The notes under the pieces are model-generated. The model did no database searches. It was not told where the DNA came from and saw only the letters and a list, made by a program, of their open reading frames with translations. A stretch of 64,000 nucleotides of DNA, taken from positions 1-64,000 of the forward strand of contig JAKVBQ010000003.1 in NCBI GenBank assembly GCA_022447205.1. The letters are read 5' to 3'. Positions 2,641 to 56,916 of this stretch are shown piece after piece. The translations under genes and the position numbers were made by a program. This DNA comes from Phycisphaerales bacterium (lineage in GTDB: Bacteria; Planctomycetota; Phycisphaerae; Phycisphaerales; SM1A02). The first letter of the stretch is position 1, and every line of letters begins with the position of its first letter.

Positions 2641-4167
2641 ATGCTCACTCCTGCGCTAGAAAGCGTGCTTTCCAATCCGGTTCTCCCAAGCCTGCCCACG
2701 GTGGCGCTTGAGGTTCTCGAACTCACATCGAGGAGTGATGTCAATCTTCGCGAGATCGAACGCGCGATCGAACGCGATCAGGCGATCTCCGCACGCGTCC
2801 TCCGGATGGTGAATTCGAGTTACTACGGACTGAGCACCCGATGTGGCAACATTCACCAGGCACTCGCCTTTCTCGGCCTGGAGACGGTGAAGAGCCTGGT
2901 TCTCGGGTTCAGTCTCGTCAAGACCGTCGAAGCCGGTGAAGAGGACGAAGTGACCTTCGATTTCCCCGACTACTGGAGGCGATCCTTCTTCTGCGCAAGC
3001 ACCGCAAGAGCCTTCGCGGAAGCCCTTCGAAATCAGGTGCGTGTCGATCCCGACGAGGCCTTCATGGCCGCTCTCATCCAGGACATCGGCATGGTCGCAC
3101 TTTGGCGGGTGCATGGAGACAGGTATCTTCAGATCGTCGACATGGCAGGTGTCGATCACCATGGTGTCACCGTCACCGAGCGGAGGACGTTGGAGATCGA
3201 TCATGCCGAAGTCGGTGCTGAAATGGCGAGGCGGTGGCGTTTCCCGAATTCGATCGTTTCAGCCATCGCATCCCACCACCACCCCTTCTCAGGCATGACC
3301 GAACACGATGCACTTGCCCGTATCGTTCGTCTGGCAGGTGCGGCTGCCTCGATGATCGACCGACGCATCAAGTCACCCCGGTCCTCGCTCCAGAGATTCG
3401 AACGTCAGGTCACCAGTTGGTTCAAGATGAAACCGGTCGAGATCCGGGATGCACTCGAGGTGGCGACGAAGCGCGCCGAGGAACTCGCAGGATCCCTGGA
3501 CATTGATGCGGGGTCGATGCCGTCGATCGATGAGATCCTTTTGCTTGCGGATGAGGCTCGTGGCGGCATGTTGAACGCCATGCCGCCCGAGACCGAGGAT
3601 CAGGCCGATGATCTGGACGAACTCACCGGACTGCCCGGCAGGAGTCGTCTGGTCACGGACCTGGAAACCGCCTTCTCCTCCTGTGGTGGAACCGGATCGG
3701 TCGCCCTCTTCCTGGTCGGTCTGGACGACGTCCGCGCCCTGAATGAACGCCTTGGCGACACTGGAGGGGACTCCGCACTCGCTCATGTCGCGGGATGTGT
3801 GAAGGAGTTCACGGCATCCTGTCGTGGAAGGGTCGGTGCCTATCGGTTCGTCGGCGCTGAGATCGCCGTGATCTTCGAGGGAGTCGACACTTCGACCGCC
3901 CTGGTCATGGCGGAGGAACTTCGCCTTGACATTGCATGTCGGCCCGCTCGAATCGAATCAAGAAACGGTGATTCCGAATTCTCGAGCATCCATGTCACGA
4001 TCGGAGTCGGTCTGCATGGTGCAGGTCGCCTCACGATCACCAGCCCGGACGGATTGCTCAGGGCCGCGATGTGTGCGGTCACTGCGGGTCGGAGACTTGG
4101 TGGTGATCGCGTCGAGTTCCACCACGATGAATCAGCCTTTGACGAGGATCACGTCGAAGTCGCCTGA
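2641..4167 (+). CDS. HDOD domain protein with a degenerate GGDEF domain
   Basis: Residues about 10-215 form an HDOD output domain, with blocks such as LPTVALEVLEL, RDQAISARVLRMVNSSYYG and HQALAFLGLETVKSLVLG. Residues about 325-490 have a GGDEF fold beginning DELTGLPGR, but the active-site position reads VGAEI (404-408), so cyclase activity is not expected. HDOD proteins act in signal transduction and are often tied to motility or cyclic di-GMP. The degenerate domain may bind a nucleotide as a receptor. GAGAGG lies upstream of the ATG. It follows recO by 110 bases and converges with the M16 peptidase gene. Confidence 0.85.
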   Translation: MLTPALESVLSNPVLPSLPTVALEVLELTSRSDVNLREIERAIERDQAISARVLRMVNSSYYGLSTRCGNIHQALAFLGLETVKSLVLGFSLVKTVEAGEEDEVTFDFPDYWRRSFFCASTARAFAEALRNQVRVDPDEAFMAALIQDIGMVALWRVHGDRYLQIVDMAGVDHHGVTVTERRTLEIDHAEVGAEMARRWRFPNSIVSAIASHHHPFSGMTEHDALARIVRLAGAAASMIDRRIKSPRSSLQRFERQVTSWFKMKPVEIRDALEVATKRAEELAGSLDIDAGSMPSIDEILLLADEARGGMLNAMPPETEDQADDLDELTGLPGRSRLVTDLETAFSSCGGTGSVALFLVGLDDVRALNERLGDTGGDSALAHVAGCVKEFTASCRGRVGAYRFVGAEIAVIFEGVDTSTALVMAEELRLDIACRPARIESRNGDSEFSSIHVTIGVGLHGAGRLTITSPDGLLRAAMCAVTAGRRLGGDRVEFHHDESAFDEDHVEVA

Positions 4168-42361: not shown

Positions 42362-45300
42362 TCAGTCGATTTCCTCGATCAAGACGCGCAGCTTCTCGAG
42401 TTCTTCCCTCTTGAATCGCCTGATCCTGGAGAGTTGCCTGCATTCCTCGGCGAGTGTTCGAGCCTCCTCGAGCATGCCGAGGTCCCTGAAGAGCTTGATC
42501 GTCCTGACCCGGAAATCAAGTCGGTTCGGCGCTCTCCGGATGACATCCTTCATCACGTCGAGTGCCTCGTTCTCCTCGCCCATCGCGACGAGAAGCGTCG
42601 CCCTGGTGTCCAGAAGTTCGGCGGTGATCCCACGCACCCGCATGTCGATCGCACGGTCAATCGCTTCCATGCCTCGGTCATGGTCGCCGTTCTCCATCGA
42701 GGCATGCTTGTAGGCGACGTTGTTCAGGGCGGTCAGGAGGATGAGCATGTCCTGCTGTACGACAGCTCTCGCTGCGGGATCGAGCGCATCCAGCGAATCG
42801 AACGATGCGACCTCCTCCGGGGAGTACTCGTCGATGAGTTCCTCGTAAAGGACGACGCATGCGGCATCCTCTCCGGAGTTTTCCGCAAGTCGTGCGCGCG
42901 CAAGCTTGATCGACCGAGCGTGATCCGGGAGCTCCTCGCCAAGCACCTCGATCATCCTGCGTGCGGTTTCTCGATCGCCTTCATCACCACTCTCTCCTGC
43001 GATGGCAATGGTCCTGTTGAGGATCTCGATCCGGCCTTCCGGAGTCTCCTCCAGGATCTCCGATATCTCCGTGAGGGCCGCCCTGGCATCGTCTGGCTGG
43101 AGTTCGTCGAGCAGCGAGAGCCACATCGTGACCAGCATCGGGTTCTCGTTCATCAGCTCCCGGAACAGTGACATGGCCTTGTCTGCGCGTCCCGTTCCAA
43201 GAAGGGCGTGCATGGTGAGCCTGCGCAGCATGTTCGGGACGGTGCTCCCGTTTCGTGCCGAGCCCTGCACGTTCAATGCGATGGATTCCTCGTCGCCGAG
43301 GATCGATTCGTATTCCAGGAGGCTTCCCGCGGCGTCGCTGTAGCGATCAAGCAACATGGCCACGTCCGCGATTCTGAGGTCATGCTGCAGCTTCCGTCCC
43401 TGCGGAGCCCTCGCCCTTGCTGCACGAGCGAACTTCAGGGCTGCCTCGAGGTCACCGGATGCGATGGCGGTCTCGAATGCCCAGAGGGGCGGCGTCACCT
43501 CGTTGGGAAGACGGTTCATGGCGGTCGAGGCGATGTCGATCGCCCGACCGTCATCGCCGACGGCATTGTGCATCGTCCAGGCGATGTGATAGCTGGCGAT
43601 GGCATTCGGACGTTTCTCGATGAGCTCGAGAGCACGCTCGAGGTCCTCGGGTCCCGAATCGAAGCGGCCCGTCACCGGATCCGATGCGTCCATCTTCAAG
43701 GACAGGACCTCTGCCAGGAGGGGGCTCTCTTCCTCGAGTCTCGGGAGCATTTCCCTGGCCTCGGGCCAGCTGCCGGGTTCGGAAACAAGCAGCGGCGCGA
43801 GTTGCCCGAGTGCGACACCATTGTCCGGTTCGATCTCGAGCGCCTGCCTGAACGCACTTCTCGCCCCTGCAAGGTCCATGTTCGCCGCCCTGATCCGTCC
43901 CGTGATCAGCCATGTGCTGACCTTGTCTGGATGTTCCGCCACAAGCACGTCACAGGCAGCCAGTGCGGATGCGACGTCGGATGCGGCGTTGTGCAGCTCG
44001 ACGACCAACGACAGCTTCTTGTGCTCGTCGATCTCTTCGGAATTCTCGACGATCGACAATGCTTCACCGATCCGACCGATCGTGGCAAGGAGGATGACCT
44101 TCCCATCGAATGCGAAACGATTGTCCGGTTCCGCATCCAGGATGAGTCCGTACTGCTCCAGGGATTCCTCGACCCTCCCCACTCGGGCGAGGAAAAGGGC
44201 AAGCGAGGTCCTGTCGAGGATCGAGCCTGATTCGTTCGCGATCGCGGTCAGTTCACCGATCGCCTTCTCGGAGTCCCCCTGTCCGACGTAGAGGGCGACA
44301 CGTGTCCTTGCCGCGGCACTGCCGGTGGCGACATCCTGGTACTTCTCGAGATACTGGATCGCCCGTTCACGATCACCGATCTGCTGGAGCATCTGGATCA
44401 GGATCGGATAGAGACTCGTCTGATTCGGCTGGGCATCGATCGCCTTCCTCATGTAGCTCGCGGAAGCGCTCAGGTCCGGAGACCTGCCGGACCGGAGCAT
44501 GTCGGACAGGAGAAGGAGTGCATCGACGGAACCCGGGGAAGCTTGTACGACCTCGTTCAATTCGACGATGGCATCGGCTCTTTCGGACTCGTCATCGATC
44601 GCCATGTTGATGACTCGTCTTGCATTCGCGAGACGATATGGGTTCGAATTCGAACCGAGCAGTCTCTCCACCTGCGCGAGGGCCTTCATGGCGAGTTCCG
44701 GTGATCGTTTCCATATATCGGGGTAGGAACAGACGATGCGTGCGGATGCGGCGTCATCCTCGAGGTCATCGAAGATTCTCCGGATCATCGGGAGAACTTC
44801 CTCGCTCGACGACCTTGCGAGGAATCCGAGGAGTCTTCGTTGGGAACGCCTGCGCTCGGCATCCGATGAGTGCTGCATGGAACCCAGGTCGCTGATGATC
44901 GCGATGGCGGCAGCTTCTTCTCCCGCGTAACGAGCACGTTCCGCAAGTGCGAATGTCGTGTCGAACGAGGATGCGCCCTTGTCCGATGCTCTTTGGAGCA
45001 GTCGATCTCCATTCGCCCCGCCGTTTCGTTCGTCGACTGCAAGGATCAGGAGAAGCTCCCTGCCCGTCACCGAATCGGAGTTGAGAGCCTCCTCGATCGC
45101 GTATTCGATGGTCTCACGGTCCCCTTCCAGGCCTGCTGCTTCCGCAAGGTAGACGAGGATTCGCGCCGATGATTCCGGGATCAGGTCCTTTGACCTCGTG
45201 TATGTGTCGAGAATCTTGTCGGTCACCTTCGAACCGTCATTGAATGAAGAGTCGACCATCCCTATATCGAGGCCGGTGCGCTTCATCGCTATCCATGCCT

Positions 45301-46696
45301 GCATTCTGACCAGCAGGGAGTCCAGACTCGGATAGTTCCGATGGAGTTCGAGTCCGTGGCGAAGGGCTTCCTGCGATCTGTTCAGTTGCAGGAGGAGGGT
45401 GGCGAGCTGTCTTCCTGCCGATCTCGAACCGGTCCTTTCGAAGATGTCCCTGTACAGGCCGACTGCAGCATCAGCCTGTCCGCTCTTCTGCAGTTGCTCC
45501 GCCTTGATGACGAGGAGCGCCTTCTGGTTTCCGGCGAGCTCGAGGACCTCGTCTATCGCCTCGATGGATTCGCGCAGTGCCTTGATGTCCTTGGCCGTCC
45601 TTGACCTGAACGCCGCCACAGTCATCTCGTCGATCCTGCCACGGGCCGTGTCGACCTCCTTCGACCGGGTGAGGAATCGCTCGTAGACATCCTCTCCAGC
45701 GGCCTGGTCTCCGCTCAGGGCGGCAAACTCAGCTGCCTCCCTCAGGAAACCGATGTCGTCAGGAAACGCATCCGCTGCCTCGAGCGCCAGCTCGAGCCCC
45801 TCCGTGTACATGGACTGTCGCCAGATCCGATCAAGTATCGCATGGGCCACTTCGGGATTCGTGGATGCCGCTGCTTCCGCCGCTTCGAGGACTGTCGCGG
45901 ATTCCTCGGAGAGCTTCATGGATTCAAGCTGTTGCAGCAGGATCATGATGATCTCGTCATCGATCGAGGGCATCCCCGCAAGCCTGCGTGCCATTTCCTC
46001 CGCCTGCTCGATCTGGCGATTCATCCTGTAGAGCGACACCAGTGCAAGCTGGATGCCTTGGTTGTCCGGATAAGACTCCGCGAGTTCGAGGGAGGTCGCG
46101 ATCCTCCGTTCGACCGGGATGCCCTGCTCCTCATAGAGGGTGAACTCATAGAGCGGCCAGGTGCCGTTGTTCGGTTCGAGATCACGGATTCGAGCGGTCT
46201 CGGCAAGCGCCTCCTCGTATCGTCCCGAAGACCTCAGGGATGACACCCTCTTGGCGATGATGTCGATGTCGTCATCAGGGAGCCTGTCGGAGTACGTGAT
46301 CACGTTTGCGGTGTCGCCTGTCGCGATGTAGATGTTGACGAGTTCACGCAGGGCCTCTTCGTTCTTGGGGTCGAGGCTCAGTGCGTGGAGGAAGAACTTC
46401 TCCGAGGCACGGACATGCCGACCGTTCGGATCGATGTTCCTCAATCGTGACTGCCCCAGAGCGAGCGTGAGTTCGAGATCGTCCTTCTTCGTCGAGACGG
46501 CCTTGCTCAACTTGGGCAGCGCGGTCAGGTAGTCGCCTGCTTCGTACGCCTCCATGCCCTGTTCGGCGGCAAGCAGGACCTGCTGTTCACGATTCCATCT
46601 CGCGTAGAAGAATCCGCCGATCAATCCTGTCGTGATCAGGACGATCAGGATCGACAGCAGGATGAGTCTTCGTTGAACTCGCTTGTTCAGTGCCAT
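42362..46696 (-). CDS. Giant membrane-anchored TPR repeat protein of the exosortase/EPS locus
   Basis: The 1444-residue protein has a short basic N terminus, one membrane helix (about 10-32, LILLSILIVLITTGLIGGFFYA) and then an almost continuous array of TPR-type helix pairs (for example AEQGMEAYEAGDYLTALPKLSKAV and AKLGQSRLRNIDPN-like units). No enzyme motif is visible. Long TPR proteins occur in many exosortase/PEP-CTERM polysaccharide loci (PrsT type), probably as a periplasmic scaffold for polymer export. It lies 38 bases after the sugar transferase gene and 21 before rfbA. There is no lipobox, unlike the lipoprotein PrsT. Confidence 0.75.
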   Translation of the reverse strand: MALNKRVQRRLILLSILIVLITTGLIGGFFYARWNREQQVLLAAEQGMEAYEAGDYLTALPKLSKAVSTKKDDLELTLALGQSRLRNIDPNGRHVRASEKFFLHALSLDPKNEEALRELVNIYIATGDTANVITYSDRLPDDDIDIIAKRVSSLRSSGRYEEALAETARIRDLEPNNGTWPLYEFTLYEEQGIPVERRIATSLELAESYPDNQGIQLALVSLYRMNRQIEQAEEMARRLAGMPSIDDEIIMILLQQLESMKLSEESATVLEAAEAAASTNPEVAHAILDRIWRQSMYTEGLELALEAADAFPDDIGFLREAAEFAALSGDQAAGEDVYERFLTRSKEVDTARGRIDEMTVAAFRSRTAKDIKALRESIEAIDEVLELAGNQKALLVIKAEQLQKSGQADAAVGLYRDIFERTGSRSAGRQLATLLLQLNRSQEALRHGLELHRNYPSLDSLLVRMQAWIAMKRTGLDIGMVDSSFNDGSKVTDKILDTYTRSKDLIPESSARILVYLAEAAGLEGDRETIEYAIEEALNSDSVTGRELLLILAVDERNGGANGDRLLQRASDKGASSFDTTFALAERARYAGEEAAAIAIISDLGSMQHSSDAERRRSQRRLLGFLARSSSEEVLPMIRRIFDDLEDDAASARIVCSYPDIWKRSPELAMKALAQVERLLGSNSNPYRLANARRVINMAIDDESERADAIVELNEVVQASPGSVDALLLLSDMLRSGRSPDLSASASYMRKAIDAQPNQTSLYPILIQMLQQIGDRERAIQYLEKYQDVATGSAAARTRVALYVGQGDSEKAIGELTAIANESGSILDRTSLALFLARVGRVEESLEQYGLILDAEPDNRFAFDGKVILLATIGRIGEALSIVENSEEIDEHKKLSLVVELHNAASDVASALAACDVLVAEHPDKVSTWLITGRIRAANMDLAGARSAFRQALEIEPDNGVALGQLAPLLVSEPGSWPEAREMLPRLEEESPLLAEVLSLKMDASDPVTGRFDSGPEDLERALELIEKRPNAIASYHIAWTMHNAVGDDGRAIDIASTAMNRLPNEVTPPLWAFETAIASGDLEAALKFARAARARAPQGRKLQHDLRIADVAMLLDRYSDAAGSLLEYESILGDEESIALNVQGSARNGSTVPNMLRRLTMHALLGTGRADKAMSLFRELMNENPMLVTMWLSLLDELQPDDARAALTEISEILEETPEGRIEILNRTIAIAGESGDEGDRETARRMIEVLGEELPDHARSIKLARARLAENSGEDAACVVLYEELIDEYSPEEVASFDSLDALDPAARAVVQQDMLILLTALNNVAYKHASMENGDHDRGMEAIDRAIDMRVRGITAELLDTRATLLVAMGEENEALDVMKDVIRRAPNRLDFRVRTIKLFRDLGMLEEARTLAEECRQLSRIRRFKREELEKLRVLIEEID

Positions 46697-50422: not shown

Positions 50423-51180
50423 TCGCTCTGTTCGCTTTCCTTCAGCTGTTCCGTGTCTTCGCCGTAGATCGGTGCAGTGAGTGCCCGGATCAGTTCCGGT
50501 GGGATCTCACTCAGCATTTCAGTGGCATGTTCGACGATCTTCGCCGTTTCCGGTGAGGCTGCAAAGACCATCTGGAGCTGTGCCACGCCTGTGGCCGAGA
50601 GGCTGCGCCCTTGCGCACTGCGTCCTTTCAGTCTTTCCATATCGGTCAACAGGGCGCCCTCCGGAAGCATGAACATGCTGATAACGGATTGTTCTTCCTC
50701 GAGACCGATGTTGCCAAAGCGCTGGAACCTGTAGAGACGCATTTCAACCGGGGTGTCGGCAAGCAACGTCCTGATAACCTCGCCCTTCTCCTCCTGCTCC
50801 GTCCATCCGGTGGCCGGATAGCAGACCGGTGGATAGTGCCCCATCATGTCCCTGAGATCCTGGCAGTGGATCAGGGCGAGCGTCACCTCGATCGGTGTTT
50901 CCAGCCGTGAGTAACGACGGCTCACCAGGGAGTTGGGATTCAGGATCTCGACGGCGGAGGTGGGAATCGGAACATCCTGTCCGATCCACATGCCGAGCTG
51001 GTACGGGAACGTCTCCATCTCCTCGGCGATGCGGACTCGATGGGCGACGATCCGGGCATCCTCGAGTGCCGGGTTGTCCAGCAGCGAGGCCCCGCCCAGG
51101 AGGACGACGATCGCCACCAGGGGAGCGTAGCGGTTCGCATGAAGTCCCATCATGCCGAGTCTCGTCGACCTCATTCTCAT
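50419..51180 (-). CDS. EpsI family exosortase-associated protein (DUF3485)
   Basis: The 253-residue protein has one N-terminal membrane segment (APLVAIVVLLGGASLLDNPA) and a periplasmic domain with the EpsI hallmark HCQDLRDMMGHYPPVCYPATGW. EpsI proteins are fused to or follow exosortases and are thought to assist them or the linked polysaccharide export. The ATG at 51180 overlaps the exosortase stop as ATGA; a second ATG two codons later is possible. The C-terminal 60 residues are acidic and variable. The frame is open far upstream, but that part is antisense to nothing and lies inside the exosortase gene. Confidence 0.85.
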   Translation of the reverse strand: MRMRSTRLGMMGLHANRYAPLVAIVVLLGGASLLDNPALEDARIVAHRVRIAEEMETFPYQLGMWIGQDVPIPTSAVEILNPNSLVSRRYSRLETPIEVTLALIHCQDLRDMMGHYPPVCYPATGWTEQEEKGEVIRTLLADTPVEMRLYRFQRFGNIGLEEEQSVISMFMLPEGALLTDMERLKGRSAQGRSLSATGVAQLQMVFAASPETAKIVEHATEMLSEIPPELIRALTAPIYGEDTEQLKESEQSE

Positions 51181-52052
51181 GATGCAAGCCTCCAGCTCAT
51201 GGTGGGTATGTCGAGCCACCTCATGAGGCGCACCGTTCCGAAGAGTATGACCAGCGCAAGCGGGAGCATGATCATGCCTCCGAACCAGTGGAAGTTGTCC
51301 GCATGGTCCGGCGAGAAGAGCGTGTAGGCGAAACTGGTGAGAACGAGTCGGAACACGTTGCACGTGAGCGCGATCAACGGCGTCAGCATGAAGAGCAGCA
51401 GCCGGGTGCCGACCCTGAACGGCATGCTGAAGACGAAGCCGTAGACGACCAGGATCAGGGCGAAGACCATCCGCATTCCATTGCACGCCTCGCCGATCGC
51501 GATCGGAACCTGTTCCTCGCCCATGAGGATCACGGCCCCCTTCTGCGTCGCGAGGACATGCGTCATGTCGAGGATGCTGATGGTCACCATCGTCGCGAAG
51601 TTCTGGAGTGGTGCGGCCAGGGCGATCCTGATGGAACCCGGTGTCGGTATCAGGAAGAAGAGGCAGATGACCGCCGGGAGGAACTGGCGAAGGACCTCGA
51701 TGCCCATCATGGTCAGCAGGCATCCGATGATCATCGTGATCGCACCACCATGCCACATGAACAGAATGTCCCGCTCGATCCCCCACCACGATGCGACTGC
51801 ACCAAGCGCGATCACCATCGGACCGATCATGCTGGGTCGGTATCGAACGAACTGGAGACGTGAACGTCGAAGCCAGAAGAGATACGCCGCCACGATCGGC
51901 GCGAAGATCGCCTGCCCGTTCTCCGGGTCCCGCAGGGCCCGGAAGACGATGTCGACCCAGGCACCCCTCGCCACCCAGATCGAGAAGATCAGGAGCAGCA
52001 GGAGCACGAGATAGTCCTGCTTCATCCAACCTCGTCGATCGGAGAAACTCAT
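51177..52052 (-). CDS. Exosortase family transpeptidase
   Basis: This 291-residue protein has about eight membrane helices and the exosortase active-site set: Cys190 and Arg194 in IGEACNGMR, Arg235 in CNVFRLVL, and a histidine in the DHADNFHWFGG segment (His250 or His255). Exosortases cut PEP-CTERM tails and probably join the protein to a surface polymer, acting on the periplasmic face of the inner membrane. Two candidate substrates lie in the window (25994 and 55929). The gene overlaps its neighbours on both sides by four bases. The subfamily within the exosortases cannot be fixed from sequence reading. Confidence 0.92.
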   Translation of the reverse strand: MSFSDRRGWMKQDYLVLLLLLIFSIWVARGAWVDIVFRALRDPENGQAIFAPIVAAYLFWLRRSRLQFVRYRPSMIGPMVIALGAVASWWGIERDILFMWHGGAITMIIGCLLTMMGIEVLRQFLPAVICLFFLIPTPGSIRIALAAPLQNFATMVTISILDMTHVLATQKGAVILMGEEQVPIAIGEACNGMRMVFALILVVYGFVFSMPFRVGTRLLLFMLTPLIALTCNVFRLVLTSFAYTLFSPDHADNFHWFGGMIMLPLALVILFGTVRLMRWLDIPTMSWRLAS

Positions 52053-53291: not shown

Positions 53292-54143
53292 TCAGATTTT
53301 CCGGACCCTCGTCGAATCGTCTCTCGGCCAGAGATGCTTCTCACGCTTGCGCGAATCGAGCAATCTTCCTGCAAGCGTCCTGGTGAACACTCGGGTGAGT
53401 CCATAGACCACGAAGCATGGAAGCAGATGCGGATTGCCGAGGACCGCCATGAGACGTTTCCGTGGTGTCGTCTCCTCGGCATCGAGCAGGTTCGGGTGAT
53501 CCCTTCGGAGTTCAAGGCTCCCGGCACGAACGCGTGTCATCATCCTGACGAGATCGCGCATCGAGGCTGGACAACGGATCCGGGAGCGTGCATCGGAAAC
53601 CATCATCCTCTCGGCGGATTCGAACTGGAGCCTGACGAATCCGTCGTCCGAGATGACATCCGGGAACGCTTCGAACCTGGCGCGTCCGGTCTCGCTGAGC
53701 GCATAGGCACCGGAACCACCGATCATCGATTCGTTGTAGAAGGGCATCCTCCTCCAGGCCGCGTAGAACATCCTGACCAGGATGCTCGAACCTCCGGTTT
53801 CGAAGACGGGAGCCGGGGAGACCGCAAGCGATCCACGATCGAGTGAATCGAAGAGTCTCCGGACGCAGTCCCGTTCGAGTCTCACGTCGGCATCGAGATA
53901 CAGGCGGGGATAGCTGGACACCGATTCGTCGCCCAGGTTCAGCGCCGCGGTCTTCGATGCGATTCCGGTCGTGATGACCTTCACCTGTTCGAAAGCTCCG
54001 GCGACGGCCGAGGTGTCGTCCGTGCATCCGTTGCAGACCACGACGATCTCGAGATCCCCGACGCCCTCCTGTCCGATCAAGGCGGTCAGGCAAGCATGGA
54101 TCACTTCCGCTTCGTCATGGGCTGGTATCACAACAGAAGGCAC
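53292..54143 (-). CDS. Family 2 glycosyltransferase (copy 1 of a paralogous pair)
   Basis: The 283-residue GT-A protein begins PSVVIPAHDEAEVI and has CNGCTDDTS, KTAALNLGDE, the DxD metal site in LYLDADV, and SDDGFVRLQFES. Length and motifs fit an inverting glycosyltransferase adding one sugar to a lipid-linked repeat unit. The GTG start at 54143 has GGGAGG seven bases before it. A closely similar gene lies at 56917. The end of the Alg13-like gene lies 22 bases upstream, so the two are probably cotranscribed. Confidence 0.85.
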   Translation of the reverse strand: MPSVVIPAHDEAEVIHACLTALIGQEGVGDLEIVVVCNGCTDDTSAVAGAFEQVKVITTGIASKTAALNLGDESVSSYPRLYLDADVRLERDCVRRLFDSLDRGSLAVSPAPVFETGGSSILVRMFYAAWRRMPFYNESMIGGSGAYALSETGRARFEAFPDVISDDGFVRLQFESAERMMVSDARSRIRCPASMRDLVRMMTRVRAGSLELRRDHPNLLDAEETTPRKRLMAVLGNPHLLPCFVVYGLTRVFTRTLAGRLLDSRKREKHLWPRDDSTRVRKI

Positions 54144-54165
54144 GCGTGGTCCTCCCACGAACGAG

Positions 54166-54645
54166 TCAGGCTGCGTGAATGAAGGTCTTGAGGGCGGAGA
54201 TGAGTTCGCTGGAAGCGGTCGGGGACAGCGGGGCCGGCTTCGAGACCTGGTCGAGCGATTCGAGGCGCTCGATCAGTTCGGACTCGTCGAAGGCGACGGT
54301 GATGCCGCTGATCTTCCTGAACATCCTGGCCGTCGCTATCTGGTGGTCGTTCCTCGTCTCGCGGAGCCTCGCGGTTCTGGGAAGCACGATGATCGGCTTC
54401 TCGTGCTTCATGGCGGCAAGGATGCTGCCGATGCCGGCATGCATGACGAGGACGTCCGCATCGGCGACGCGTTCCGCGTATTCGTCCGGTTCCAGGAGCA
54501 GGGAGTAGTCGCTGTTCTCGGGGCGCCATGACGTCGATCCGATCTGCATGAAGACGTCCTTGCGGTCCCTCCGACCACACCATTCGTCGACCGTGCGACA
54601 GAGCCTGTCGAACGGCATCTGCATTCCAACACTTACGAAGATCAC
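54166..54645 (-). CDS. Alg13-like glycosyltransferase subunit (PssE/EpsF type)
   Basis: The 159-residue protein is one C-terminal GT-B half: MIFVSVGMQMPFDRL, VLVMHAGIGSILAAMKHEKPIIVLPR and a terminal helix. Alg13-type subunits supply the nucleotide-sugar binding half and need an Alg14-type membrane partner to work. The partner is encoded immediately upstream, overlapping by four bases (ATGA). In bacteria such pairs add the second sugar to lipid-linked intermediates. Confidence 0.85.
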   Translation of the reverse strand: MIFVSVGMQMPFDRLCRTVDEWCGRRDRKDVFMQIGSTSWRPENSDYSLLLEPDEYAERVADADVLVMHAGIGSILAAMKHEKPIIVLPRTARLRETRNDHQIATARMFRKISGITVAFDESELIERLESLDQVSKPAPLSPTASSELISALKTFIHAA

Positions 54646-55700
54646 AGGACGTTCCCCTTGTACTGCGCGCCATCATTGGTTGCCAGTTTCGGCCACTGCG
54701 TGAGGAGCAGGTCGATCCACCGCATCGCCTTGCTGCCCGACATCGACAATTCATCCGCATTGGCGATCGAATCAACCCAGCAGGATCGGATTCCCAGCAT
54801 CTTGCCGGCGATGCATGCCATGTAGCCGGGTGCGGCTCCGGTCGTGATGATGACGTCCGGACGTTCCCGCATCAGTATCCGCGTGACGACGAGGAAGGAC
54901 CAGGGGATCTTTCCGATGTTCCAGCGAGTGAGATCGGGAATACGGCGGTATCGATAGCCGGCCTTCTCGACACCCTTCCTGTGCCCCTCGTTCACGGAGC
55001 AGAAGCAGACATCGCAATTGTCGAATGCGGGGTGCAGTCTCATCAGTTCGATCCAGTGTCCACCCCCGGAGCTGACGGCGAACACACGAGGTATCGCGAC
55101 TTCGCTCTTCGGAATGGCCTTCGGCCTTGGAGGTGGCGTGTCGATCCTGGAGACATCCAGTTCATCCTCGGGATCCTGGTCCCACTCATCGTCCCTCATG
55201 AGATCGTCGCTGGCGATGACGTTCCCGAAGTAGAGAGGTCCGTCCGGATCAGCAAGGTGCTCCCATTGCGTGAGCCAGAGGGTCGACCACCGCCGCGCCT
55301 TGCGACCGGACATGGACAGCTCGTCGACGTTGGCGATCGAGTCGATCCAGCAGGTCCTCTTGCCGAGGAGCTTGCCGACCACGAGTGAGAGGTAGCCTGG
55401 TGCGGCACCGGTGGTCACGATCGTGTCCGGTCGGGTCCGGATCACCAGCATGATGATTCGCAGCAGGAGCCAGAAGAGCTTCAGCTTGTTCCAACGAGTC
55501 GCATCGGGAAGGACCTTGAACCGTGCATTGTCATCATTGAGATCGATTCGACTGGATTTCAGAACCGTTGCGTACGTGACGTCACAGCCCTCGAACGCGG
55601 GTTGCAGTCTCAGGAGCTGCACCCAGTGCCCACCGCCGGAACTCACTGCGAGGACGCGCGGTCTCCTTCGCGGCTTGTTGTCGGAACGAGCTTGAGTCAT
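54642..55700 (-). CDS. Tandem Alg14-like protein (two PssD-type domains in one chain)
   Basis: This 352-residue protein contains two copies of the Alg14/PssD domain. The blocks AVSSGGGHW (18-26 and 208-216), TRWN, TTGAAPGY, SIANxDELSMSG, LTQW and GNV recur in the same order in residues about 14-165 and 205-352. A charged, Pro-rich linker (about 165-203) joins them. Ordinary Alg14 proteins have one such domain of 150-200 residues. Only one Alg13-type partner is encoded, directly downstream. The first copy lacks nothing obvious relative to the second. A TAGGAC hexamer six bases before the ATG may be its promoter. Confidence 0.88.
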   Translation of the reverse strand: MTQARSDNKPRRRPRVLAVSSGGGHWVQLLRLQPAFEGCDVTYATVLKSSRIDLNDDNARFKVLPDATRWNKLKLFWLLLRIIMLVIRTRPDTIVTTGAAPGYLSLVVGKLLGKRTCWIDSIANVDELSMSGRKARRWSTLWLTQWEHLADPDGPLYFGNVIASDDLMRDDEWDQDPEDELDVSRIDTPPPRPKAIPKSEVAIPRVFAVSSGGGHWIELMRLHPAFDNCDVCFCSVNEGHRKGVEKAGYRYRRIPDLTRWNIGKIPWSFLVVTRILMRERPDVIITTGAAPGYMACIAGKMLGIRSCWVDSIANADELSMSGSKAMRWIDLLLTQWPKLATNDGAQYKGNVL

Positions 55701-55928: not shown

Positions 55929-56702
55929 TCAGCGGAGCTTGCGCCTGAGGAAGGCGGCTCCGACAAGACCGATGCCGGCGAGGATGCCCGGCATGGGAAG
56001 GGGGACCACCATCAGCTGGTCCTGCCTTGCCGGGTTCGTCAGGCCGATGACGTTCCCGTTGGTGTTCAGCCATCGGTTCTCGCCGAGTGCGGACATGATC
56101 AGATTGGCGGCCTCGCTGGTGTCGTTTGAATCCGCCAGATCGGCCCTGAATGCACCGAGTTCGAGCGAGAGTTGCGATGCCGCATCGTTGATGGTGACGT
56201 CACCTATGTTCTCGTTGATGATCTCCCAGACGACAAGCTGAAATGCGCTTGCCGCGGTCTCGTAGTCGAATTGATCCGTCAGGGCGGTGCCGTCCATGAG
56301 ATACCCGCTCGTCGTGTCGATGAACCTCGCGTACAGGTCGTTCACCAGACCGGCCTGCGCCTCGTTCATCGGACCTGGATACGGCGGGGATTCCGGGACC
56401 TCGGTGAGATCCTGGTGCATGTCGAAGGTGTATTCCTCACCAAAGGTGACGTTCTCGTAGATCTGGATGCAGTAGGTGACGACTTCGTCGCCGTACTGGT
56501 TGGTCCAGAGTCTCTCGCCGGTCGTGATGTTGTCGATGTAGTTGACTTCTGCACTGCTTCCGGAGTCGAGTCGACCATCCATCGCGATGCTGTAGATGCC
56601 ATACGCACCCATCTCGTCGAGACGCAGTGAGATCTGATCAGCCGATGCAATCGACGCCGTGAAACCGATGAGGCACGGTACGACCAATGTTCTGTTCATC
56701 AT
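55929..56702 (-). CDS. PEP-CTERM protein with thioester-domain-like signature
   Basis: The 257-residue protein has a signal peptide (LVVPCLIGFTASIASAD), a beta-rich body and the sorting tail VPLPMPGILAGIGLVGAAFLRRKLR region (a PEP-CTERM variant: Pro-rich motif, hydrophobic helix, basic end). The body has VTYCIQIYENV (Cys78) and, about 75 residues later, AASAFQLVVWEI (Gln155). This pair matches the Cys and Gln of surface thioester domains, which form an internal bond that can react with host or matrix amines. It sits between two glycosyltransferase groups, so it may be a substrate of the local exosortase. The ATG at 56702 is the first of two adjacent ATGs. Confidence 0.78.
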   Translation of the reverse strand: MMNRTLVVPCLIGFTASIASADQISLRLDEMGAYGIYSIAMDGRLDSGSSAEVNYIDNITTGERLWTNQYGDEVVTYCIQIYENVTFGEEYTFDMHQDLTEVPESPPYPGPMNEAQAGLVNDLYARFIDTTSGYLMDGTALTDQFDYETAASAFQLVVWEIINENIGDVTINDAASQLSLELGAFRADLADSNDTSEAANLIMSALGENRWLNTNGNVIGLTNPARQDQLMVVPLPMPGILAGIGLVGAAFLRRKLR

Positions 56703-56916
56703 CTTTCTACCGCCAAACCAATCGAGTCCGGTGTGGGTGGCATGTCTTGTAAAGACCCTGGAATGGGGGAATTCCGCCACCTCACCGGTTTCACAGAAGG
56801 TATCCACCTGCCGCTGCGATCGAACACCAAACCGGTCATTTGGAGCCGAGTCGAAGCCTTCTTCGGATGATCGGAACCATTACACGGACGTGTCTTCCGT
56901 TATCGGAGAACGCCGT

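Follow-up and report, generated by a model that had tools for sequence, protein, structure and literature searches.

Two Alg14-like acceptor halves in one chain beside a single Alg13-like donor half in a predicted exosortase-linked exopolysaccharide cluster of a Phycisphaerales bacterium

Known split glycosyltransferases and the make-up of the D-D/E locus

The two halves of a split GT-B enzyme are generally taken to pair in a fixed 1:1 ratio. The bacterial pairs PssD/PssE, Cps14F/Cps14G and EpsE/EpsF consist of Alg14-type and Alg13-type halves, which are encoded by adjacent, overlapping genes in an exopolysaccharide cluster, and the eukaryotic chitobiose-forming transferase Alg13/Alg14 is likewise a split, MurG-like GT-B enzyme. 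The rhizobial genes pssD and pssE are described in PMC9961541 as encoding "halves" of one transferase. Yeast Alg13 has activity only in complex with Alg14, and the human proteins are purified together as a heterodimer (PMC9527342); Alg13 and Alg14 associate through the C-terminal helix of the former and the last three residues of the latter (PMC8993221). Furthermore, chains in which one Alg13 and one Alg14 have become fused again are reported from Bacteria, Archaea and eukaryotes (PMC8993221; fusions also in PMC4973528). A search of the open-licence literature for tandem or duplicated Alg14 returned no characterised protein with two such halves in one chain (only Cryptococcus gattii genomes came up), which is consistent with the statement in the original prediction that no characterised protein of this layout is known; within the same open-licence scope, nothing was found on Cps14F/Cps14G, nor on exosortase and exopolysaccharide in Phycisphaerales.

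The locus described here resembles the bacterial pairs in its Alg14- and Alg13-type halves, its adjacent overlapping genes and its exopolysaccharide setting, but it has two acceptor halves in one chain per donor half. Within the window (the whole stretch of DNA that was analysed, 64,000 nucleotides), an open frame of 352 residues on the minus strand (54642..55700), termed D-D, holds a first Alg14/PssD-like domain (D1, residues 14-163; 55212..55661), an acidic and Pro-rich linker of 40 residues (residues 164-203; 55092..55211) and a second Alg14/PssD-like domain (D2, residues 204-352; 54645..55091), and it is followed on the same strand by a single Alg13/PssE-like donor half of 159 residues, termed E (54166..54645). 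The start codon of E is a GTG within the stop of D-D, giving an overlap of four bases; such an overlap is the usual state in most of the single-D kin as well, which suggests about one E per chain. The block AVSSGGGHW lies at residues 18-26 and again at residues 208-216, 190 residues apart, and the blocks TTGAAPGY and SIAN.DELSMSG also occur in two copies each. Hence, the doubled motif blocks and the charged, Pro-rich linker that had been read from the sequence were borne out, and the extent of the frame and its four-base overlap with E were confirmed. The alignment of D1 with D2 spans 149 residues at 55% identity and scores 178 bits, as against a best score of 24.6 bits among 1000 shuffles of D2, of which 466 gave any alignment.

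In a domain search of the chain, the NCBIfam PssD profile (NF041549) matched two separate stretches and also each half by itself. The scores of the halves (72.5 bits for D1 and 66.9 for D2) lie below the equivalog cut-off of 110, which is passed only by their sum (134.2). The gathering cut-off of the Pfam family Alg14 (PF08660; 27 bits) is passed by the whole chain (56.1) and by D2 (37.2), with D1 just below it (24.4). E passes the cut-off of Glyco_tran_28_C (PF04101; 35.2 bits, cut-off 22) and scores 93.0 bits with the PssE profile (NF041548), below its equivalog cut-off of 120. Because each half and E miss the NCBIfam equivalog cut-offs, the locus is filed outside PssD/PssE proper, and it is best described, on profile scores, as a putative Alg14/EpsE-like plus Alg13/EpsF-like split GT-B pair. 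The Alg13/Alg14 pairing that had been proposed for the locus therefore stands as regards two Alg14/PssD-type halves in one chain and one Alg13/PssE-type partner, but not as regards PssD/PssE proper. In contrast to pairs with one acceptor half per donor half, two D domains and one E were found in this genome (G000) and likewise in its relative G001. The WelK-type glucuronosyltransferase, a fused D-E chain (NF046028), is similar in profile to both D and E, but the scores (93 bits for D-D and 66.9 for E) are far below its cut-off of 400; moreover, the WelK profile has D as its first half and E as its second, whereas D is here fused to D and E is a separate gene.

When D-D or a D profile was used to search the sequences of solved structures, only chance-level matches came up. 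The fold search was made with an AlphaFold2 model of D2, and D1 was compared by sequence. The D2 model (pLDDT 72, pTM 0.72, from a thin alignment of three rows) is poor at residues 117-123 and in its last 17 residues. MurG chains were ranked top for it by both Foldseek and VIA-align, with the N-domain of 7d1i_C at Z 12.6 (rmsd 3.5 over 136 residues in VIA-align; Foldseek E 8.7e-6) and 1nlm_A at Z 12.4. D2 is thereby modelled with an Alg14/MurG N-domain fold, rather than a non-Alg14 fold that would have spoken against the tandem reading. This likeness to MurG is shared with the eukaryotic Alg13/Alg14 transferase. Nevertheless, the human complex is described as a heterodimer (PMC9527342), the fusions named in PMC8993221 join one Alg13 to one Alg14, and MurG itself is there one chain with one N-domain and one C-domain. 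The model of the whole D-D chain is poor (pLDDT 57, pTM 0.39), and all that it conveys is that the elements of the two halves follow a similar order, the placement of D1 relative to D2 being unreadable; its residues 120-201, with pLDDT under 50, cover the linker but also the end of D1.

Recurrence and rarity of the fused layout

A search of related genomes, which the original prediction had proposed, found the same fusion twice. G001, another species of the same genus (g1), carries an in-frame D-D followed by E, and G179, from another genus (g13), carries at the same locus a D-D chain in an open frame of 376 codons, again followed by E. A split gene was considered a possible source of the repeat; the linker runs without stop or frameshift in all three genomes. 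A frame error or collapsed assembly was rejected, since G001 and G179 carry the identical in-frame layout, and a frame error in one assembly is a very unlikely source of D-D. The layout is also not restricted to this genome in its 2:1 ratio: in G251, which belongs to another family of the same order, two D domains and one E occur as three separate genes (D, D, E), with one E found in the genome.

In G000 itself, one D-D and one E were found (genome 95% complete), and no second E was found in G000, G001 or G251 (95%, 95% and 94% complete, respectively), which leaves a small chance that a copy was missed. Three E occur in G179 (79% complete), of which one adjoins D-D and two are parts of D-E fusions. 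One D each was found in G013, G180 and G181 (the last only 54% complete), and the second D would accordingly seem dispensable in close kin, with the same reservation for G181. The gene order around D(D)-E is common to G000, G001, G179 and G180; G180, with a single D and one E at the corresponding locus, thus shows the same surroundings without the second D.

Between G000 and G001, identity is 74% for D1 (69% if part of the linker is included), 69% for D2 and 71% for E, as against 15% for the linker. The corresponding dN values are 0.19, 0.24, 0.20 and 1.31, with dS near saturation (1.3 to 2.2). The dN values of D1, D2 and E are alike, and both D copies are therefore kept; by these estimates both are under purifying selection like E, and the linker drifts. 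These figures bear directly on the view that the chain has no function of its own, being either a tandem duplication that is passing or in decay or a product of faulty assembly. Tandem duplication is common, and in several kin the search turned up no second copy; however, the layout occurs in three separate genomes of two genera, it is old (63% identity of D-D between the g1 species) and both halves are under purifying selection, which makes this explanation highly improbable.

The in-frame D-D is rare in the surveyed genomes. In a sample of the own genome and its relatives, D was found in 21 of 61 genomes and E in 21 of 61, and a survey of the family gave a match in 40 of 181. Three further samples, which overlap, were taken from the order, the class and the phylum. 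The order sample matched in 92 of 400 genomes, 79 of them above 50 bits (the 13 weakly matching genomes below this line being set aside), with an in-frame D-D in three of the 79 (G000, G001 and G179). The class sample matched in 87 of 397 (75 above 50 bits; in-frame D-D in two, G000 and G001) and the phylum sample in 121 of 392 (44 above 50 bits; in-frame D-D in one, G000). These counts are to be read as those of chains in which both D fall within the E-value limit, as a D-D with its second D beyond it escapes them. Outside the phylum of the window, whole-genome coverage consisted of fourteen named control genomes, five of which matched the PssD family. A scan of genome contigs gave one relative, a metagenome-assembled genome labelled Lentimicrobium with ordinary D and E, and a scan of viral contigs found none; 38 plasmid records matched, each over 387-573 bases, which corresponds to one D.

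Divergence and possible roles of the two acceptor halves

Our preferred reading, which is tentative and plausible rather than probable, is that D-D/E forms a split GT-B transferase with its acceptor half doubled in one chain, a shared single donor half and two acceptors. The acceptor-binding, membrane-side half would have been duplicated and retained in one chain, the donor-binding E being single, and E, judging from the literature and from the anatomy of the halves, would bind either D (one at a time, or as two E per chain). One donor half would in this way give two transferases, which may transfer one and the same nucleotide sugar's residue to two different acceptors within a single lipid-linked chain; D1 would retain the ancestral acceptor, D2 would have taken on a new one and the tether would place the product of one site next to the other. 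We infer E binding and activity for both D, and different acceptors for the two. The more specific form of the proposal, that is, a shared-donor transferase of one nucleotide-sugar specificity that makes two linkages and hands the product between its sites along the tether, is possible, if somewhat doubtful.

The motifs of the two halves were assessed against a reference set of 45 other D domains, which includes several D of one genome and the D of D-E fusions and was drawn up without G038 and G161. Thirty columns have a conservation of 95% or more in this set; at these, D1 departs at one column in G000 and none in G001, and D2 at two and one, respectively; in G179, the departures are none for D1 and one for D2. 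With the threshold lowered to 85%, which gives 40 columns, the departures of D1 number two in G000 and none in G001, and those of D2 five in each, which is more than in any of the 45 others (0 to 4). The G-loop with its His, the TGAAPG and W.DS.AN blocks and LTQW are intact in both D1 and D2, so the His-containing motifs expected of an acceptor half are found in each; the function of the G-loop motif is one that we take over from MurG. A G-x-[VM]-[LIV] end is present in 36 of the 45 domain segments; a free G-N-V-L tail closes D2, as is usual among single D, and D1 has its G-N-V element inside the chain. By their motifs, both D thus retain the catalytic loops of the acceptor side together with the tail element that docks such halves on E.

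The trees place D1 and D2 apart (the D trees being drawn without G038, G161, Lentimicrobium and G003, and the E tree without these and G181). The D1 domains of g1 group together in one clade (97/90), next to which stand the D domains from the g13 locus (91/82), and the D2 domains of G000 and G001 form a separate clade (100/99) with a shared stem of 0.51 versus 0.16; in the E tree, g1 and the g13 locus fall into one clade (100/99). Averaged over 20 single D domains (L021 of G038 being omitted), identity is 54.6% for D1 and 47.3% for D2. D1 is accordingly placed, by sequence comparison, close to the ordinary D partners of the orthologous E clade. The view of D1 as the ordinary copy rests on the tree, the identities and the PssD scores, and the Pfam Alg14 score is instead higher for D2 (37.2 versus 24.4). 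In G251, the two D are sisters (100/99), and the second, which adjoins E, stands at 1.56 versus 1.05 to the nearest outside row. Since G251 has the 2:1 ratio unfused, its D pair being sisters, the trees imply that the 2:1 D:E gene ratio arose at least twice. A recent duplication inside G179, with its D1 and D2 as sisters, was rejected (p-AU 0.0037). In the AU tests, D2 of G000, G001 and G179 as one clade gave p 0.289, and D1 and D2 of g1 as one clade gave p 0.241, neither grouping being rejected; the fused D-D of g1 and G179 may go back to one event with losses in G013, G180 and G181, or to two events.

These rates bear on the chief alternative, itself doubtful, namely that only one D is catalytic (D1 with E, or else D2, as the copy with the free tail and the one translated beside E) and that the other serves as a membrane anchor, a dimeriser or a docking site for another enzyme of the pathway. 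The copy adjoining E is the faster one in two of the three cases (D2 of g1, and the second D of G251, in which three of the 30 columns are changed, namely W, N and Q), and single-D kin are found at the matching locus. On the other hand, D2 of G000 and G001 retains the catalytic motif set under strong purifying selection (dN 0.24, dS about 1.9), and the G-loop His would be superfluous in a pure anchor. Furthermore, the second copy of G179 is not clearly faster (branch sums of about 0.83, and 0.75 for the first) and departs at only one of the 30 columns, and in G251 the copy away from E is changed too (two of 30, W and P). A rule that the E-adjoining copy is always the faster one was dropped, being true in g1 and G251 and false in G179; its failure in G179 takes little from one support of the single-catalytic-copy alternative, and the preferred reading loses about as much by the changes in both G251 copies. 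Either G251 copy may be non-catalytic, and the trio looks, from its changed columns, less clearly like two active halves. Speeding-up of a D copy would fit a new acceptor or lost catalysis alike, and the intact motifs would favour a new acceptor in g1.

Apart from catalysis at one site, D1 and D2 might do the same job, the fusion raising the local affinity for acceptor or membrane or the number of E per chain. Motifs are kept in both copies, and arrays of D and E are duplicated in G118, G120, G499 and G740, so that extra copies are evidently tolerated. Nevertheless, the 55% identity of D1 to D2, as against 69-74% between orthologues, and the fixed D1/D2 differences at 15 of 149 columns point to long separate constraint rather than redundancy, and such a dosage or avidity effect is unlikely. 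The two domains share 18-19 of 25 residues at the first G-loop and 13-16 of 21 at the second, and differ most in the beta2-alpha2-beta3 segment, with six to seven of 26 residues shared as against 14-17 of 26 between orthologues (all segments being set by hand).

The D-D/E locus raises the question of whether a single donor half is able to work with two acceptor halves. The conserved 2:1 gene ratio, which takes the form of a fusion here and of separate genes in another family, offers a natural test of the modularity of acceptor and donor halves. A donor half re-used with several acceptor halves would widen the set of linkages from few genes, and D-D/E would offer a natural template for engineering combinatorial glycosyltransferases.

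Gene cluster and other arrangements of D and E

On the minus strand, D-D is preceded by genes for a polysaccharide deacetylase, a protein without family (hydrophobic by eye), a GT2, a hexapeptide transferase, a further GT2 and a protein with a PEP-CTERM-like end. It is followed by E, a GT2, a protein with a hexapeptide end, an exosortase, a Wzc-like kinase, a Bac_transf phosphoglycosyltransferase, a TPR protein and rmlA, rmlC and rmlB-type genes; by this gene content, the locus is predicted to be an exosortase-linked exopolysaccharide cluster. The GT2 directly 3' of E (53292..54158, minus strand; Pfam Glycos_transf_2) has a counterpart in G001 only, among ten loci of seven genomes compared. 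The exosortase (51177-52052, minus strand) has its best NCBIfam score with XrtD, below the cut-off of that family, and the TPR protein (1444 residues; 42362-46696, minus strand), which lies between the rml genes and the phosphoglycosyltransferase, has a homologue of 45% identity in G001. The upstream neighbour of D-D (55929..56807, minus strand) is common to G001, G179, G180 and G181; it looks secreted, with a PEP-CTERM-like end read by eye, and has no match in Pfam or NCBIfam. Its VPLP-like C-terminal sorting end would perhaps make it a substrate of the exosortase.

Several other arrangements of D and E were encountered. The G251 trio (L139) suggests either a D-E-D-E array minus its first E or a D duplicated at the D/E joint. 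Between its sister D genes (G251:C12, about 4080-4120, minus strand), a 12-codon frame overlaps the stop of the first D and opens with M-I-L-V, which, read by eye, is like an E gene and is possibly the remnant of a lost E. G120 has a D, E, D, E array. G118 (L067), G740 (L143) and G499 (L144), which belong to different families, carry D, an E-D fusion and E, that is, a D-E-D-E array with its middle pair fused. Besides its D-D and E, G179 has two tandem D-E single-chain fusions (L065, G179:C73, 4773-5888 and 5922-7202), natural chains on which the contact between D and E could be modelled. The E-D chain of G161 (L075, G161:C65, 3805-4905, minus strand) has its order reversed, as is reported for some eukaryotes, and is divergent in the tree. 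Finally, D lies in-frame behind a GT2-like part in G031 (L010, C16) and behind a GT4-like part in G038 (L021, C44), followed in both by E, the GT labels being assigned by eye.
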